Source of the DNA: a virus
Length of the DNA stretch: 25,805 nucleotides
Reading direction: 5' to 3' (one strand)
IMG/VR virus record: IMGVR_UViG_3300049259_000062
Coordinates: 1-25,805 of that record
Below the pieces are notes generated by a model, which had not been told where the DNA came from, did not search any database, and worked only from the letters and a program-made list of their open reading frames with translations. Numbering within the stretch: the stretch's first letter is position 1; each line of letters opens with the position of its first letter. Position numbers and translations under genes: made by a program. This document shows, piece after piece, positions 18,042 to 24,720 of the stretch.

Positions 18042-18982
18042 CCGCTAACGATCTCATCACCGGCGCGCTCAAGCGCATCAGCTCCTATGCGCCTGGCGAA
18101 CCACTGGCCGCGGTCGATGCACAAGACGCGCTGGACACGCTCAATGACTTGCTCGACTCATGGTCTACACAGGACAACTACGTGTATGGCAGTCTTGAAG
18201 ACATCTTCAACTTCGTCACCGGGCAGTATCAATACACTATCGGCAACTATGTTGGCGGCACCTTCACCGGCACACTAGTTGGAGGCTCTGCAGTAATTTC
18301 TGGCGTGACAGTTCCATCCAATATCACGGTCCTGGGTGACATCACGGCCGGCGCTGGAGTTGCGAGCGGGGCTACTGTGGCGACATTCAACGCAGGCGCA
18401 AATACCGTCACGATGTCACTGCCGGCAACCGTCACGGTTGCGACTCCGCAGCAGTTCATCTATACCATTCCGGGCAACTTCAAGGCACCGCGACCGCTGC
18501 GCATTACAAATGCCTTCACGCGCATCACGACTCAGTCGAGCGGCCTCGATTATCCGATTGAGATTGTCTCGCAGGGGCAATATACGCAAATCGGTTTGAA
18601 ATCGATTCAAGCACCATGGCCGATCGCGCTCTGGTATAACCCGGGCTATCCGCTCGGCATTTTATCGTTTTATCAAGCGCCTTCGACTGCTGGTGAGCTG
18701 CATCTCTTTGGTGATTTGATCCTCTCGAATCTCGCGAGCCTCACGACGCAGGTGAACTTGCCGCAGGGCTATTCGCGCATGATCAAGCTCAACTTGGCGA
18801 TCGAGCTTTCCATGGAGTATGGGCGCCCAGTTGCGCCAGCACTTGCAAAGCTTGCTAAAGAATCCGTTGACTTCGTCAAGTCGCTGAATGCAAATCCGGT
18901 CCCGGTGAGCAACTACGATGCCGATATCGTAAGCGCGAGACGCAGCGATGCTTCCTGGATTTTGCATGGGGGCTTCAGATAG
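18035..18982 (+). CDS. Head-completion/tail adaptor protein, P22 gp4-like, with inserted domain
   Basis: A 315-residue protein. The first 70 residues (TANDLITGALKRISSYAPGE, ALDTLNDLLDSWSTQ) and 142-315 (FKAPRPLRI, YPLGILSFYQAP, LPQGYSRMIKLNLAIELSME) match the gp4-like adaptor family. The family motif YTIGxGGxFxxxRP is split: YTIG at 67-70, then about 70 inserted residues rich in Gly, Thr and Val, then YTIPGNFKAPRP at 143-154. The adaptor closes the portal and receives the tail. The start is TTG 18035 by overlap with the leader. CTG 18038 is possible. Confidence 0.85.
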   Translation: MLTANDLITGALKRISSYAPGEPLAAVDAQDALDTLNDLLDSWSTQDNYVYGSLEDIFNFVTGQYQYTIGNYVGGTFTGTLVGGSAVISGVTVPSNITVLGDITAGAGVASGATVATFNAGANTVTMSLPATVTVATPQQFIYTIPGNFKAPRPLRITNAFTRITTQSSGLDYPIEIVSQGQYTQIGLKSIQAPWPIALWYNPGYPLGILSFYQAPSTAGELHLFGDLILSNLASLTTQVNLPQGYSRMIKLNLAIELSMEYGRPVAPALAKLAKESVDFVKSLNANPVPVSNYDADIVSARRSDASWILHGGFR

Positions 18983-20712
18983 TGGGCGCTGATTTCGGAT
19001 TTTGCGGACAAAGTTACGCCGCGCCCGATATCTATCAAGACCGCCAAGTCTGCATAAATTTTTACCCGGAAGTATCACAGTCGATCAATTCAAAGGGTGA
19101 GCAGCAAGGTGGCACATCGGGCTCTAAAGGTGCGGTGATCGCGCTCTTAGGCTGCCCGGGCCTGCTCTCGATCACGACATTGCTCGCGAATGCCGAGGTA
19201 CGCGGCTGCTGGGTGTTGCCGGGTAATACGCAGGCATTATTTGTAGCGCAGAACAAGTGCTACGTGATGACGGTCACGGTGCCGGCAACACAGACAAGCT
19301 TGCCGCAATTCAGTGTCGTGCAAGTCGGAACACTGCTCACGAATAACGGTCAGGTTTGCATTAGAGACAACGGTGCCGGTGGCTATGCGGTGATCGTCGA
19401 TGGACCGTACCTGTATTACTACCGCATCGCCGGCGCGGGGACCGTGACATTTACTGGTGGTGTGACCAACACCAGCACCACGATGAGTGTTGCCGCGCCG
19501 CTGCCGGCCGCATTGATTATTGCACCGTCCGTGACGCTCACGGATAGCTCAGGCTTCATCCTGGCGGGCACGACGATTACGAATATCAACTACAATACGC
19601 CAAGCCTCACGCTCTCAGCGGCCGCGACCGGCACGAATGCGGTTGATACGATCACACTCAACATTGCGCAGTTCGGTCAGATCACCGATCCAGGATTCTT
19701 AGGCGCGAACAAGATCGCCTTTATCCGTGGCTTTTTGATCTTCAATAAGCCGAACTCGCAAACGTTCTTTATCAGTCAAAACTATGGATTGAATTTCAAT
19801 CCGCTTGATTTCGAGTTGAACGATGGATCGAGTGATAATCTCGTAACGCTGATCGAGAACAAGAATGAGCTGTGGTTGATTGCTGAGCGCACCACGCAGC
19901 CCTGGTATGATTCAGGCGGCACGTTTCCGTTTGCTCCGATCGATGGCGCTGCCCTGCAAGTGGGTTGCTCGGCAATGAATACGATTGCGCGCATGGATAA
20001 TGATCTCATTTGGCTCGGCTTCTCGGAGCGTGGCCAGAATGTGATTGTGAAGACCAGCGGATATCAAATCGAAAACATCTCAACACGTGCAATAGAGCAT
20101 GCGATTTCTCAATATCCGCTGGTCTCAGATGCCTTTGCCTATACCTATCAGGAAGACGGCCACGGCTTCTATGTGATTACGTTTCCGACGGCGGACGTTA
20201 CCTGGGTCTATGATGGTTCTACCAAGATGTGGCATGAGCGCTTGTCGTTTGATTCAGTGGGCGGCATCTATCATCGCCACCGCAGCAATTGCTATGTGAA
20301 CTTTGCCAATGTGCGCATGGTCGGCGACTATCAGAACGGCAAGGTCTATGTGATGTCGCGCAACTATTATACCGATGATGGGCAACCATTGATTGCACGG
20401 CGCGTGACGCCGTATGTATGGGATGGCGGCGCGCGTGAACGCATTGCGCACAACTTTTTGCAAATCGAGTTCTCGCCCGGCGTCGGACTAGCATCGGGTG
20501 CGTCGCAAGATGTTGATCCATACATCATGGTCTCTTGGATCGATGAGAACGGCCAGAGCAACCAGCATCTAGTACCCATTGGCAAGATCGGACAAGCGCG
20601 CAATCGCGCAATCAAGCGCCGCTTAGGGCTCGCAAGAGCACGCGCCTATGATGTGAGCATTTCCGCTGCCGTGAACCGCGACATTGTCGGCGCAACGCTG
20701 GATGCCTCATGA
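18982..20712 (+). CDS. DNA-stabilisation/portal-vertex protein, P22 gp10-like
   Basis: A 576-residue protein, longer than P22 gp10 (472). GTG 18982 shares a base with the previous TAG. Family words are INFYPE near the start, GCPGL, AFIRGFLIFN, FNPLDFE, TQPWYDSGGTFPFAPIDG, AYTYQEDGHGFYVITFPTAD and TWVYDGSTKMWHERLS. This is the beta-propeller protein that plugs the vertex after packaging. Between YLYYYRI (144-150) and FGQITDPGFLGANKIAF (231-247) lies an 80-residue beta-rich insert (151-228) that resembles the insert in the gp4-like protein. Confidence 0.88.
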   Translation: MGADFGFCGQSYAAPDIYQDRQVCINFYPEVSQSINSKGEQQGGTSGSKGAVIALLGCPGLLSITTLLANAEVRGCWVLPGNTQALFVAQNKCYVMTVTVPATQTSLPQFSVVQVGTLLTNNGQVCIRDNGAGGYAVIVDGPYLYYYRIAGAGTVTFTGGVTNTSTTMSVAAPLPAALIIAPSVTLTDSSGFILAGTTITNINYNTPSLTLSAAATGTNAVDTITLNIAQFGQITDPGFLGANKIAFIRGFLIFNKPNSQTFFISQNYGLNFNPLDFELNDGSSDNLVTLIENKNELWLIAERTTQPWYDSGGTFPFAPIDGAALQVGCSAMNTIARMDNDLIWLGFSERGQNVIVKTSGYQIENISTRAIEHAISQYPLVSDAFAYTYQEDGHGFYVITFPTADVTWVYDGSTKMWHERLSFDSVGGIYHRHRSNCYVNFANVRMVGDYQNGKVYVMSRNYYTDDGQPLIARRVTPYVWDGGARERIAHNFLQIEFSPGVGLASGASQDVDPYIMVSWIDENGQSNQHLVPIGKIGQARNRAIKRRLGLARARAYDVSISAAVNRDIVGATLDAS

Positions 20713-21044
20713 GTCAGCAAATCCCGCATCAATCGATTCCGGTTGCAGGCCAAGTGCCAATGACGCGTGAATGGTTCGGCTATCTCGCCAAGCAATATCG
20801 CCAGCTAGGCGGGCAGGGAGAGGCGCTACAGCCTGTAACGGTCGGAGCCTCTCCCTACATCTATCAGGCGCAAACCAATGGCTTGCTGATTATCTCTGGC
20901 GGTACGGTGAGCGCTATTGCCTATAGCCGCGACCGGACAGCTTTTTACACGCTCGGCCAGACTTCGGGACTGTTTCCACTATTCGCGCTCGATTACATCC
21001 GCGTCACTTATACGGTGCTGCCGGTATTGGTCTTTGCGCCGTGA
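20709..21044 (+). CDS. Small virion-associated protein, 111 aa
   Basis: ATG 20709 overlaps the gp10-like stop. The N-terminus is polar (PVAGQVPMTREWFGYLAKQY), followed by a beta domain (GLLIISGGTVSAIAYSRDRT, FPLFALDYIRVTYTVLP). I have seen this pattern in genes after gp10-like proteins in other podoviruses, where its role is not assigned. It is probably part of the portal vertex or a baseplate-like connector. Confidence 0.55.
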   Translation: MSQQIPHQSIPVAGQVPMTREWFGYLAKQYRQLGGQGEALQPVTVGASPYIYQAQTNGLLIISGGTVSAIAYSRDRTAFYTLGQTSGLFPLFALDYIRVTYTVLPVLVFAP

Positions 21045-21559
21045 AGCGGCTATTTTTTATCTTTTGTCTGCCACGTTCGGGTAGTGCCTGGTTGTCGCTG
21101 TTTTTGAGTGGCAACGATAGCTTTTGCTTTCATGACCCATTAGGCGATCAGGGCGCGCTAACGGAGCGCATGTATAACCGCAAAGAGAGCGTGGTAGGCG
21201 CGATTGATAGCGGCGCCTATCGAATGTCAGCCGCTATTCAAACCGCATTGCCGTGCGCGCGCTATTTCGTATTGCGCCGCGATCCACAAGAGATCCAGCG
21301 CTCGAGCGACAAGTTCGGCGTGAAGTTCAATGCAGTACAAGAGAGCAGTATTCTGGATGGTTTGGAGCATTTGCAGCTCTATTCGAGCATGTTCGGCGAT
21401 CTCGATTATCTCGAATTTCTATGGCGCATGATCACTGAACTACCGTTCGATCGCGAGCGCGCCAAGATCATGAGCGAGATGCGCGTAGAGCGCGATGTGT
21501 ATCGTTATTTCAGCAACCGTCCACACTTGCCGAATCCGCTGCGTGCAAGCTGGAATTGA
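21041..21559 (+). CDS. Sulfotransferase-like protein (PAPS-binding motifs)
   Basis: A 172-residue protein starting at GTG 21041 (GTGA overlap). LPRSGSAWL (10-18) is the 5'-phosphosulfate loop of PAPS-dependent sulfotransferases, and FVLRRDPQEIQRS (76-88) fits their 3'-phosphate-binding motif with Arg and Ser. FCFHDPLGD at 28-36 supplies a possible active-site His. Cellular sulfotransferases are about 250-300 residues, so this is a short phage form. The acceptor could be a virion part, host glycan or small molecule. It is coupled to an oxygenase-like gene. Confidence 0.72.
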   Translation: MKRLFFIFCLPRSGSAWLSLFLSGNDSFCFHDPLGDQGALTERMYNRKESVVGAIDSGAYRMSAAIQTALPCARYFVLRRDPQEIQRSSDKFGVKFNAVQESSILDGLEHLQLYSSMFGDLDYLEFLWRMITELPFDRERAKIMSEMRVERDVYRYFSNRPHLPNPLRASWN

Positions 21560-22166
21560 GCTGTTGCCGTATCGGTTCGATATCGAGCCGCTGAAGACAG
21601 AACTGAATGCGCATCCTGAGCTATGGGATGACTTCGACCTGCGGACTAATCATCCGCAGTCCCCGCACCGCGAGCTCTCGGATATTTTTGTGCGCTACAA
21701 CGCACGCGCGAACTTCACCGGCGATCGGCATGCATTCAACGAAGCACACGCCCCAGTGTGGTGGCCGACCGCTGAGCTTTTGCCCACGGCAAAGAGCATC
21801 GCCTTAGATCTGCAAAGCATGCTTGGCGGGGCACTCGGTATGGTGCTGGTGACGAAGATCCCGGCGCATGCACAGTGCTATCCACACATCGATGTTGGTT
21901 GGCATGCACGCACCTTCGTGAAGTACGCAGTGCAGATCGCTTCTAGCGAAGGGCAAGCGTTCCACGTGGAACAAACAGCGCTCTCGGCTAAGCCGGGGGA
22001 GTGCTACTGGTTTGATAACTCACGACTGCATCATGTGATCAATGACTCAGACGAGGACCGTATGACACTCATCGTTTGTATTGCGGCAGGCCAAAAATGG
22101 GCACATGTCCATAACATCGGAGGCGCTAGCTCGGTTGTTGAAAAACAATTAGAACTAGTGGGTTAG
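21543..22166 (+). CDS. Aspartyl/asparaginyl beta-hydroxylase-like oxygenase
   Basis: About 207 residues. YPHIDVGWHARTFVKYAVQI (113-132) holds the HxD half of the iron site, AFHVEQTALSAKPGECYWFD (139-158) is the jelly-roll core typical of the beta-hydroxylase family, HHVINDSDEDRMTLIVCI (163-180) has the distal His and an Arg suited to 2-oxoglutarate binding. The fold therefore looks complete. The substrate is unknown. GTG 21543 overlaps the sulfotransferase gene by 17 bases. No good ribosome-binding site is seen, and TTG 21564 or CTG 21561 are alternatives. Confidence 0.75.
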   Translation: MQAGIELLPYRFDIEPLKTELNAHPELWDDFDLRTNHPQSPHRELSDIFVRYNARANFTGDRHAFNEAHAPVWWPTAELLPTAKSIALDLQSMLGGALGMVLVTKIPAHAQCYPHIDVGWHARTFVKYAVQIASSEGQAFHVEQTALSAKPGECYWFDNSRLHHVINDSDEDRMTLIVCIAAGQKWAHVHNIGGASSVVEKQLELVG

Positions 22167-22294
22167 TCACGCCGGTTGGATGGGTTGCAGCGGGTGCCGC
22201 CGTATTAGGCGCGGGCGCATCTATCTATTCGTCGAATCAAGCCGCTAACGCACAGACCTCTGCAGCTAATAGCGCGAACGCAACGCAGCAGGGC

Positions 22295-23242
22295 ATGTTC
22301 AATCTTAGCCAGGGCCTGCAGCAGCCCTACATGCAGTCCGGCTATGGTGCGCAGACGGTGCTCAACCAATTGCTAGGTATTGCACCGCAGACTGCGGCCG
22401 GCAACACGCCGACGGCTGCTAAAGAACCAGATGTCCAGATTGGTAATGCAACGCTGCCTGCGGGCACCACCACGCGCCTAACCCGCAGCGACAGAAGCGG
22501 CACCTATGGTGATGTCATCGATGCGAGCGGCCAAGTCATTGGCACGATTAGCCCGGGCGGTAAGGCGGGCATCTTCAGATCCAATGGCCGCACGCCCGCC
22601 ACTCAAGCCACGACGCCCGCCAATACCGCTCCGAACGGAGGGGCCAATGTTGCCGGCGGCGGAAGCACTTTAACCAGTGACGGCGTACAGCAAGGATTGC
22701 AGACCGGACCAAGCACGGGAACGCCACTTTCCAACATGAACGGTGTCTCCGGCACGGGACTACCCGCAGGCTACCTGACACAGCAATTTGGGCGACAGCA
22801 GTTTCTCGACAATGTCGATCCCGGCTATGGCTTCCAGCTACAACAGGGCAACACCGCGCTTGAGAATCGTCTCTCCGCCGGCGGCAGCACCTTGGGCGGT
22901 GCCGGCCTACGCGCCTTAGCGGGCTACAACCAAGACTATGCAAGCACGGGTTACAACAATGCCTTCAATCGTTTTGAGACACAGCAAGGCAACATCTTCC
23001 AACGGCTCTCCGATGTGGCTAATCGCGGTCAGAATGCCGCTGCGGGCGTTGGGCAGAATGCCATCACCACCGGCTCTAACATTGGTGCAAATACAGTAGG
23101 TGCTGGCAATGCGCGAGCGGCAGCCGATGTGGCTACTGGCAATGCAATCGGCAATCTCGGTAGTAATCTTGCTACGTATTCATATTTGAATCAGATGGGC
23201 AAGGCTCAAACACCAACAGTTCCTGCTACTGGTAATACCTGA
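22295..23242 (+). CDS. DNA ejection / internal virion protein, gp7-like
   Basis: At least 315 residues, rich in Gly, Asn, Gln and Ala (QQGMFNLSQGLQQPYMQSGY ... GAGLRALAGYNQDYASTGYN), like internal virion proteins that form the ejection channel. ATG 22295 is the first standard start, but the frame is open from 22142. The codons for TPVGWVAAGAAVLGAGASIY and the helix up to ATG 22295 look like the family's own membrane-active N-terminus. No ATG, GTG, TTG or CTG lies in that stretch. The only near-cognate codons are ATT 22148 and ATC. I report the ATG and treat upstream coding as likely. Confidence 0.7.
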   Translation: MFNLSQGLQQPYMQSGYGAQTVLNQLLGIAPQTAAGNTPTAAKEPDVQIGNATLPAGTTTRLTRSDRSGTYGDVIDASGQVIGTISPGGKAGIFRSNGRTPATQATTPANTAPNGGANVAGGGSTLTSDGVQQGLQTGPSTGTPLSNMNGVSGTGLPAGYLTQQFGRQQFLDNVDPGYGFQLQQGNTALENRLSAGGSTLGGAGLRALAGYNQDYASTGYNNAFNRFETQQGNIFQRLSDVANRGQNAAAGVGQNAITTGSNIGANTVGAGNARAAADVATGNAIGNLGSNLATYSYLNQMGKAQTPTVPATGNT

Positions 23243-24720
23243 TGCCGATCGACAGCTCAATTCCCCTGCAAGCACATTCGCCGAGCGCTGGTGAGACGCT
23301 GCAGAACTTGTCTTCGATGCTGGGGCTTAGACAACAGCAGCTAGCGCTTAAGGGCCAAGCGGCACAGGTTCAGCAGGAGCAACAGACCGCCAAGCAACGC
23401 TCGGCCTTGGCTGATTTCGATGTATCGAAAGTCATCGGAGAGGATGGAACCATAGATCTAAACAAGATCCCCGGGAGCGGTTTGCGCGAAGCCGCTGGTG
23501 ATGCGTTCCCGGATGTGCTTGCGAAATATATGGGCGTCAAACAGCAGCAACTTGCTGCGAAGACTCAGCTAGTACAGCTCAAGGATACGCAGCGCAATTC
23601 CTTTGGCCAAATGATCGGTGCTTTGCGTAGCGATGATGATGTGACTCACGACACACCGCAAGGAAGGCAGAAGGTAGTGCAGGCACTCGGACAGTACGGG
23701 CAAATGTATGGCCCCGATGTGCAGAATGTATTGCAAGCCTATGCCGCGCCGATCGCACAGGCACCGCCCGGAAAACTGAGTCAAGTACTGCAAAATATTC
23801 AACTGCAAGCGGTAGATGCGGGGACGCAAGCCGAGAAGCAGCGGCCAAATTATGGTTTTGTCGATACTGGCGCTCGAGATATTCGCACACAGAACAATGC
23901 GCTTGCACCCGGTGGGGCTAACATGCCTACAGAAGTGCAGCATGAAGTAGGCCCTAGCGCTGATGTGTTGCAAGACCCAAGAAGCGGCAATTTCTACCGC
24001 TTCAATCGTCAAAACAACACAGTCACCCCAGTGGGTGCAGGGGGCGGTTCTCAGGCCGCGCCTAATGCCCCACCGGTGATGAATCCCGGCGAGGCCGCAA
24101 CTATTCATGCGGATGTCGGGAAAGGTGCAGAAATGGCATGGGCCAACCGCAATGCTGCCGCTGTCGCAAAAGTGAATCGCGATGCCTTGAGTAAGATCGA
24201 GGATCTCGCCGATAAAGCACAAACCGGGCCCGGCTCACAGGAATTTGCAGCGCTTAAGTCCGCGGTGGGTGGGTTTACCGGCATCAAAGGCGCATCCAAT
24301 TCCGCAACCAATGTGAACGAGCTCACAAAACTCTTGGCGCAGGTCGGGGTGCAGCGTGCCGTAGCGCTCGGCATGGGCGGCTCCGATGCCCGCCTGGGTG
24401 AGATTGAAAAATCACTACCCTCGGCAAAAGCCGATCCGGAGGCGCTCAAGTATGCCGCGCAGTACAACCGCGCAATCGAACATGCCGCCGAGGCCAAGGG
24501 CGATGCACAATCGAAATGGTACGAAGAGCATGGCCAGAACTATGCAACACATGGACAGTTCGAGGATAAGTGGCGGCAATCTGCCGATCCGCATGTATTT
24601 CAGGCATTAGAGATGCCAGACGAACAAGCGGCGAAGTTTTACAAGGGGCTCTCTGCAACCGACAAATCGAAGTTCAAAGCGAGCTATGAGAAACTGAAGG
24701 CATTGGGAGCGGTGCAATAG
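23242..24720 (+). CDS. Internal virion protein / DNA ejection protein, gp20-like position
   Basis: A 492-residue protein with ATG sharing a base with the preceding TGA. A helical Gln-rich N-terminus (LRQQQLALKGQAAQVQQEQQ) is followed by a low-complexity middle (about 195-290, Pro/Asn/Gly) and a helical C-terminus with MGGSDARLGEIEKSLPSAKA. The layout fits P22-type ejection proteins that leave the capsid ahead of the DNA. No catalytic motif is visible. It lies between two other ejection-type genes. Confidence 0.65.
   Translation: MPIDSSIPLQAHSPSAGETLQNLSSMLGLRQQQLALKGQAAQVQQEQQTAKQRSALADFDVSKVIGEDGTIDLNKIPGSGLREAAGDAFPDVLAKYMGVKQQQLAAKTQLVQLKDTQRNSFGQMIGALRSDDDVTHDTPQGRQKVVQALGQYGQMYGPDVQNVLQAYAAPIAQAPPGKLSQVLQNIQLQAVDAGTQAEKQRPNYGFVDTGARDIRTQNNALAPGGANMPTEVQHEVGPSADVLQDPRSGNFYRFNRQNNTVTPVGAGGGSQAAPNAPPVMNPGEAATIHADVGKGAEMAWANRNAAAVAKVNRDALSKIEDLADKAQTGPGSQEFAALKSAVGGFTGIKGASNSATNVNELTKLLAQVGVQRAVALGMGGSDARLGEIEKSLPSAKADPEALKYAAQYNRAIEHAAEAKGDAQSKWYEEHGQNYATHGQFEDKWRQSADPHVFQALEMPDEQAAKFYKGLSATDKSKFKASYEKLKALGAVQ

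Follow-up and report, generated by a model that had tools for sequence, protein, structure and literature searches.

The window, the whole stretch of DNA analysed here, comes from IMG/VR and is a virus fragment 25,805 bases long. It encodes a terminase, a P22-like portal, an Hc3 head-closure protein and a DNA-ejection protein (phrog_598). Two overlapping enzyme-like genes lie between the head-closure and ejection genes. The first-pass annotation had described them as a sulfotransferase-like and a beta-hydroxylase-like gene within a virion module, and the portal, Hc3 and ejection protein of that module bear out the placement. The features of the locus are as follows.

18982-20712, plus strand: head-closure protein Hc3 (P22 gp10-like), the upstream border of the enzyme slot (phrog_578, E=1.4e-86)
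20709-21044, plus strand: small needle/plug-like protein of 111 residues, between Hc3 and the enzyme cassette (position; conservation with similar proteins in relatives)
21041-21559, plus strand: compact sulfotransferase-like protein of 172 residues with a GTG start (motifs, phrog_10855, AF2 fold)
21068-21091, plus strand: 5'-phosphosulfate-binding (5'-PSB) loop LPRSGSAW, residues 10-17, with P11, R12 and W17 invariant
21278-21304, plus strand: 3'-phosphate-binding (3'-PB) motif R80...S88, with R80 invariant and S88 almost so
21543-22166, plus strand: 2OG/Fe(II) hydroxylase (PF05118) of 207 residues from GTG 21543 (PF05118, comparison with the relative L012, AF2/Foldseek)
21885-21893, plus strand: iron ligands H115-x-D117, invariant in 73 aligned sequences
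22029-22061, plus strand: third iron ligand H163 and 2OG-binding R173, invariant in the same 73 sequences
22169-23242, plus strand: DNA-ejection protein A (IVPa; phrog_598 DNA ejection, E=4e-16; alignment with L012), MPVGWVAAGAAV
23242-24720, plus strand: second putative ejection protein (IVPb; position and synteny with relatives)

The needle/plug name of the 111-residue protein, which matched no Pfam or PHROG family, is a tentative one. IVPb had no Pfam family above cut-off and no informative PHROG. A plasmid search returned no DNA match, and a search of a defence library returned nothing meaningful.

The sulfotransferase-like protein does carry both PAPS-binding motifs. The 5'-PSB loop and the 3'-PB Arg/Ser pair of the PAPS sulfotransferase superfamily are present in the window protein and conserved in 30 aligned relatives, among which P11, R12, W17, H31 and R80 are invariant and S13, G14 and S88 almost invariant. 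Family scoring by itself is weak. The window protein scores 19.3 bits against Pfam Sulfotransfer_3 (PF13469), below the cut-off of 27, and 13 of the 30 relatives match that family at E<0.01. With a score under the Pfam cut-off, the family name thus rests on motif and fold. The protein also matches phrog_10855 in a PHROG search (E=7e-13). Its AlphaFold (AF2) model, with a pLDDT of 92.8, has the P-loop sulfotransferase fold, and the best PDB matches of the model in a structure search are tyrosylprotein sulfotransferases (TPSTs; E=5.7e-5, TM 0.64 by query length, 13% identity). The P-loop fold and both motifs are common to the window protein, TPST and Sulfotransfer_3, but the window-type proteins have ~156-183 residues as against ~270-330, and the window protein is about half the size. 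Sulfuryl transfer from PAPS is the predicted activity. The specificity cannot be inferred from the TPST likeness of a predicted fold.

The single sulfotransferase protein, used as the query in an IMG/VR scan, found no match; the alignment found 143 relatives. The sequence alone had no match in a PDB sequence search, and a search of the PDB with the profile gave just weak matches to SULT loops. Relatives are also encoded by siphophages of the Pseudomonas Bradleyvirinae (L005, L006) outside the virion module, and in Ab18, of the same group, the relative lies beside DNA-metabolism genes. The label hydrolase or NTP hydrolase that several Bradleyvirinae records give these relatives is probably wrong.

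The second gene encodes a protein that scores 33.8 bits against PF05118, above the curated cut-off of 22.6, and all 73 aligned hydroxylases match the family at E<0.001. The HxD...H iron site reported by the first-pass annotation is complete, and H115, D117, H163 and R173 are invariant throughout the alignment. Loss of active-site residues was looked for in the homologues of both enzymes, and the catalytic residues were found invariant instead. The AF2 model (pLDDT 91.3) has the double-stranded beta-helix fold, and its top PDB matches are 2OG hydroxylases. A Foldseek search returned L-proline cis-4-hydroxylase, AspH, proline 3-hydroxylase and PHD2 with a best E of 3.6e-10, and proline hydroxylases are the closest solved folds. 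The window-type hydroxylases share HxD...H, the 2OG arginine and the predicted fold with PF05118 and with the proline hydroxylases (L-Pro cis-4-hydroxylase, 4p7w; Pro 3-hydroxylase, 1e5r); unlike these they are phage-borne and ~180-200 residues long, and their identity to 4p7w/1e5r-type enzymes in structural alignment is 11-17%. Human AspH is described as acting on EGF-like domains (PMC7251097). An N-terminal Pro, not Asp or Asn, is the substrate proposed for the PF05118 hydroxylase here. By fold and motif both proteins are enzymes and are presumably catalytically active. Relatives of the hydroxylase also occur on chromosomes of Rhodobacteraceae and other Alphaproteobacteria (L174, L176, L177, L178, L180), in what is apparently a non-phage gene cluster.

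The first-pass annotation had the two genes coupled by an overlap. The overlap is real, and its length needs correction. The hydroxylase frame is open from ATG 21495, a start that gives a 65-nt overlap with the sulfotransferase gene. In the closest relative, L012 (79% identical), a stop closes the upstream frame immediately before the matching GTG. GTG 21543 is thus the most likely start, which shortens the overlap from 65 nt to 17. Gene overlaps in relatives are mostly 1-20 nt. A short overlap is consistent with translational coupling. Both enzyme genes are clearly under purifying selection, with dN/dS of 0.02-0.24 wherever dS is unsaturated.

At least 500 relatives of the hydroxylase were found in IMG/VR, and gene neighborhoods were counted at 110 distinct loci. 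An adjoining sulfotransferase gene is present in 44 of the 110, upstream of the hydroxylase in 35 and downstream in nine, so that the adjacency recurs in other phages in either gene order. Other partners are a cupin (26 loci), a downstream GNAT (13), a glycosyltransferase (one) and a GNAT plus a cupin (one), and no such partner is found in the remaining 25. The partner types almost never occur together at one hydroxylase locus, and at least 23 changes of partner are needed on the hydroxylase tree. Conversely, 52 of 86 distinct sulfotransferase genes, a set partly found through the hydroxylase, have an adjoining hydroxylase. The sulfotransferase stands alone in the slot before the ejection genes in L097, L098, L111 and L118, and it is apparently at the same place in the more distant podoviruses L130 and L151. 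The two enzymes thus do not form a fixed pair: the hydroxylase often has no partner or has a cupin or GNAT in that role, and the sulfotransferase can occur by itself.

What is constant is the position. The cassette lies between the Hc3/needle genes and the IVPa gene, normally directly upstream of the latter, and the IVPa profile finds an ejection gene downstream of it in 84 of the 110 hydroxylase loci. In a survey of Hc3-containing contigs, which were chosen without regard to cassette enzymes, 60 of 91 loci had a cupin, GNAT, hydroxylase or sulfotransferase in the slot. The slot GNATs belong to phrog_1249 acetyltransferase. Bacterial loci with a hydroxylase, a GNAT and phage-type neighbors in Burkholderiales, Sphingomonadales and Rhodanobacter are probably prophages.

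The slot also holds less familiar genes. A protein of 291-308 residues with a cupin-like N-terminal part is encoded at L242:3334-4209, L250:7782-8708 and L335:2868-3743; the L242 protein has a weak SET-domain match (PF00856, E=4e-4), and the counterpart in Rhodoferax phage P26218 is annotated as similar to tail fibre protein. DUF6445 proteins with a 2OG-oxygenase-like HxD lie before the ejection gene at L265:7090-7746 and L275:7066-7668, a family that PHROGs labels minor coat protein. At L080:7189-7974 a glycosyltransferase-like gene (PF13524) replaces the sulfotransferase upstream of the hydroxylase, and the next gene starts MPW. A conserved uncharacterised protein occupies the slot at L286:5305-5760 (phrog_21390) and L305:4964-5422, and proteins similar to it come after the sulfotransferase in L142 and L159. 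HNH endonuclease genes are found repeatedly in or beside the slot (L007, L038, L058, L095, L118).

The N-terminus of the ejection protein encoded next to the cassette follows the type of enzyme. In IVPa the column differing most by the presence of a hydroxylase is residue 2, which is Pro in 98% of hydroxylase-positive and 33% of hydroxylase-negative phages. When starts were assigned by a rule that ignores residue 2, Pro2 was found in 75 of 80 loci that have a hydroxylase without a GNAT; in the five non-Pro loci the N-terminus is unreadable, the start having been placed inside the gene. The same rule gave Val2 in 13 of 17 loci with a hydroxylase and a GNAT, three of the others being unreadable. 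When the eight loci with an unreadable N-terminus were removed after inspection, the counts became Pro2 in 76 of 76, including one locus with GNAT, cupin and hydroxylase, and Val2 in 13 of 13 with hydroxylase and GNAT. The loci behind these Pro2 counts had been collected through their hydroxylase or sulfotransferase; no hydroxylase locus without a GNAT was present in the sample chosen by Hc3. Where a GNAT is alone residue 2 is Ala (six of nine) or Cys (two of nine). HxH cupin loci have Pro2 in nine of 11, also without a hydroxylase, so Pro2 is not exclusive to the hydroxylase; non-HxH cupin loci have Thr or Ser in 81%. In sulfotransferase-only phages residue 2 is Pro, Gly or Ala, and with such a mixture the sulfotransferase substrate is not readable from it.

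The association is confined to the tip of the protein and holds across lineages. Measured against cassette class, the excess mutual information of a residue peaks at 1.24 bits for residue 2 and is 0.59 for residue 3, 0.81 for residue 4, 0.33 for residue 5 and ~0.05 for residue 20. To control for phylogeny, independent pairs were compared on a tree that leaves out the first 20 residues: 10 of 12 change in the same direction and none in the opposite one (median p 0.002); when HxH cupins are counted as a Pro-type cassette the result is 13.6 versus 0 of 16 (p ~1e-4). Residue 2 of Hc3 and of the gene after IVPa, used as control genes, is not fixed by cassette class. A start MPW or MPA is also seen in seven downstream genes whose divergence puts them beyond the IVPa profile, and Pro2 is fixed across hydroxylases that are just ~45% identical while residue 3 may be W, F, L, V, I, A or G. 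Within the hydroxylase, the iron and 2OG residues are constant and the Pro and Val classes are told apart at W73, W120, K127 and C179, an observation that is supportive only, the Val class being almost one clade. Among individual annotated phages, Pseudomonas phage PfAn1 of P. fluorescens (hydroxylase XRX11816.1 and GNAT acetyltransferase XRX11817.1; ejection protein XRX11818.1, MVAAAV) and ctXG1253 (hydroxylase alone; MPWAAA) fit the pattern. The divergent phage DC33, with hydroxylase and GNAT, goes against it, its putative ejection protein being MGVTAA with Gly2.

In the window itself, the IVPa start codon, aligned with relatives, is ACG, and CCG at 22172-22174 is the conserved Pro2. The frame has no ATG, GTG or TTG until 22295. 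Positions 22169-22174 read ACGCCGGTT, where L012 has ATG; the ACG is either a rare start or a sequence error. The Pro-first peptide for the N-terminus of ejection protein A is PVGWVAAGAAVLGA.

The sulfotransferase/hydroxylase pair would then be one version of an exchangeable protein-modification cassette carried by podoviruses upstream of ejection protein A. Methionine aminopeptidase removes Met before nearly all of the residue-2 types seen; thus residue 2 would be the mature N-terminus, exposed once the start Met has been cleaved off in the host. The 2OG/Fe(II) hydroxylase would act on this exposed end, normally on Pro and in the lineage paired with a GNAT acetyltransferase on Val. The partner enzyme, a sulfotransferase here and a cupin or acetyltransferase elsewhere, would make a second change at or near the tip. 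Candidate acceptors for the sulfotransferase are hydroxyproline, the N-terminal amine or a Tyr elsewhere, and its target is the weakest link of the proposed mechanism. The modified end would be hydrophobic and rich in Gly and Ala, and would probably enter a membrane in DNA delivery. Judged from sequence comparison, the cassette enzymes may well modify the N-terminus of ejection protein A after Met removal, a reading given about even confidence, and for the hydroxylase this candidate role is well motivated. The first-pass annotation had proposed that one enzyme hydroxylates and the other sulfates a residue of a virion protein. A virion-protein substrate gains ground from the covariation of residue 2 of the adjacent ejection protein with enzyme type. 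An obligate hydroxylate-then-sulfate chemistry is made less likely, because the sulfotransferase and the hydroxylase are each found in the slot without the other.

The main rival to N-terminal modification is that the slot is a recombination or insertion hotspot at which the first codons of the ejection gene hitchhike; the residue-2 correlation would then be linkage and the enzymes would act elsewhere. HNH endonucleases insert at the slot too, chemically varied genes occupy it and the correlated codons lie very near the cassette, all as hitchhiking would have it. However, the signal has all but vanished 20 residues in, a distance far shorter than typical exchanged tracts, Pro2 stays fixed across divergent hydroxylases despite the variable residue 3, and a few enzyme families dominate the slot even in the unselected survey; hitchhiking is accordingly considered unlikely, if a serious contender. 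It is still less probable that the target of the enzymes is internal, a residue within the ejection protein, the needle or Hc3, with Pro2 unrelated or a recognition element. The constant placement within the virion module and the TPST-like fold of the sulfotransferase would suit an internal target, but the strongest hydroxylase-linked column in the ejection-protein comparison is Pro2 itself, and needle proteins with and without the enzymes show no obvious specific acceptor residue. The needle protein as a target of Tyr sulfation was rejected, there being no obvious residue particular to sulfotransferase-bearing phages.

Two further readings take the enzymes away from virion-protein chemistry, and both are very improbable. 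In one, they are auxiliary metabolic genes whose target lies in the host: a surface lipid or glycan, its metabolism or its translation. The window hydroxylase weakly matches the lipid A hydroxylase LpxO, presumably a distant relative, but its score against the LpxO model (NCBIfam equivalog) is 14.8 bits where the cut-off is 500, and LpxO identity and lipid A modification were rejected on that score. The enzyme genes are neighbors of the ejection gene within the structural operon and not members of early modules, although in Pseudomonas Bradleyvirinae the distant relatives of the sulfotransferase are found outside that operon. Phage 2OG oxygenases and sulfotransferases are usually classed as auxiliary metabolic genes (PMC10580990, PMC9602691), a classing that would agree with a host target. 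Nothing found in the analysis pointed to host-surface or capsid glycans, the other target that the first-pass annotation had raised. The last reading, given marginally the least credence, is that the proteins retain enzyme folds but work as structural or chaperone parts of the virion. In PHROGs, tail fibre protein is indeed the label on relatives of the slot cupins, and minor coat protein that on the 2OG-like DUF6445 protein. Against this, the invariant residues in both families are the catalytic motifs, and the fibre name may have been propagated from a similarity note like that of Rhodoferax phage P26218 gp30 rather than marking the slot cupins as plain structural tail fibres.

Modification of virion proteins by phage-encoded enzymes has precedents, among them virion glycosylation. 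N-terminal modification by the cassette, as proposed, would resemble these systems in that late genes covalently decorate structural proteins. It would differ in that several unrelated chemistries alternate in one ejection-gene slot and covary with residue 2. Val, Ala and Cys N-termini can be N-acetylated, and N-terminal Pro is a poor substrate for N-acetylation. The slot GNATs, of the superfamily that includes RimI-like N-terminal acetyltransferases, go with Val, Ala or Cys at residue 2, whereas the hydroxylase/sulfotransferase version goes with Pro. Beta-hydroxylases have been annotated in Limnohabitans phage DC33 (PMC12195039), pelagimyophages (PMC7029224) and cyanomyophages (PMC3037559), and sulfotransferases in OM43 phages, where the function is stated to be unclear (PMC10580990). 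These are the same enzyme classes, but they are reported as single genes, listed as auxiliary metabolic genes (PMC12195039, PMC10580990, PMC7029224, PMC3037559, PMC9602691). The DC33 record (L004, PQ492659.1), with a genome of 39 kb, is filed under Inoviridae, which looks like a taxonomy error. A search of literature readable without subscription found no description of the pairing, of its slot beside the ejection gene or of the covariation at residue 2.

Genes for 2OG oxygenases, GNATs, cupins and sulfotransferases abound in phages, where they are mostly classed as auxiliary metabolic genes without an assigned role. The residue-2 covariation points to a concrete candidate substrate, the N-terminus of the neighboring ejection protein. 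A broader proposal, put forward tentatively and with less than even confidence, is that podoviruses carry exchangeable N-terminal finishing enzymes (hydroxylase, sulfotransferase, acetyltransferase, cupin, SET-like), each co-evolving with the exposed first residue of the neighboring ejection protein, whose chemically adjusted tip would be needed for DNA delivery. On this view the hydroxylase would have N-terminal prolyl hydroxylation as its task, and no sulfotransferase before this one would be known to act on a virion ejection protein. If N-terminal modification of the ejection protein is true, it would explain a large set of such genes in podoviruses and would add N-terminal hydroxylation, and possibly sulfation, to phage biology. 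The crossing of the cell envelope by podoviruses would then depend on a modified protein tip.
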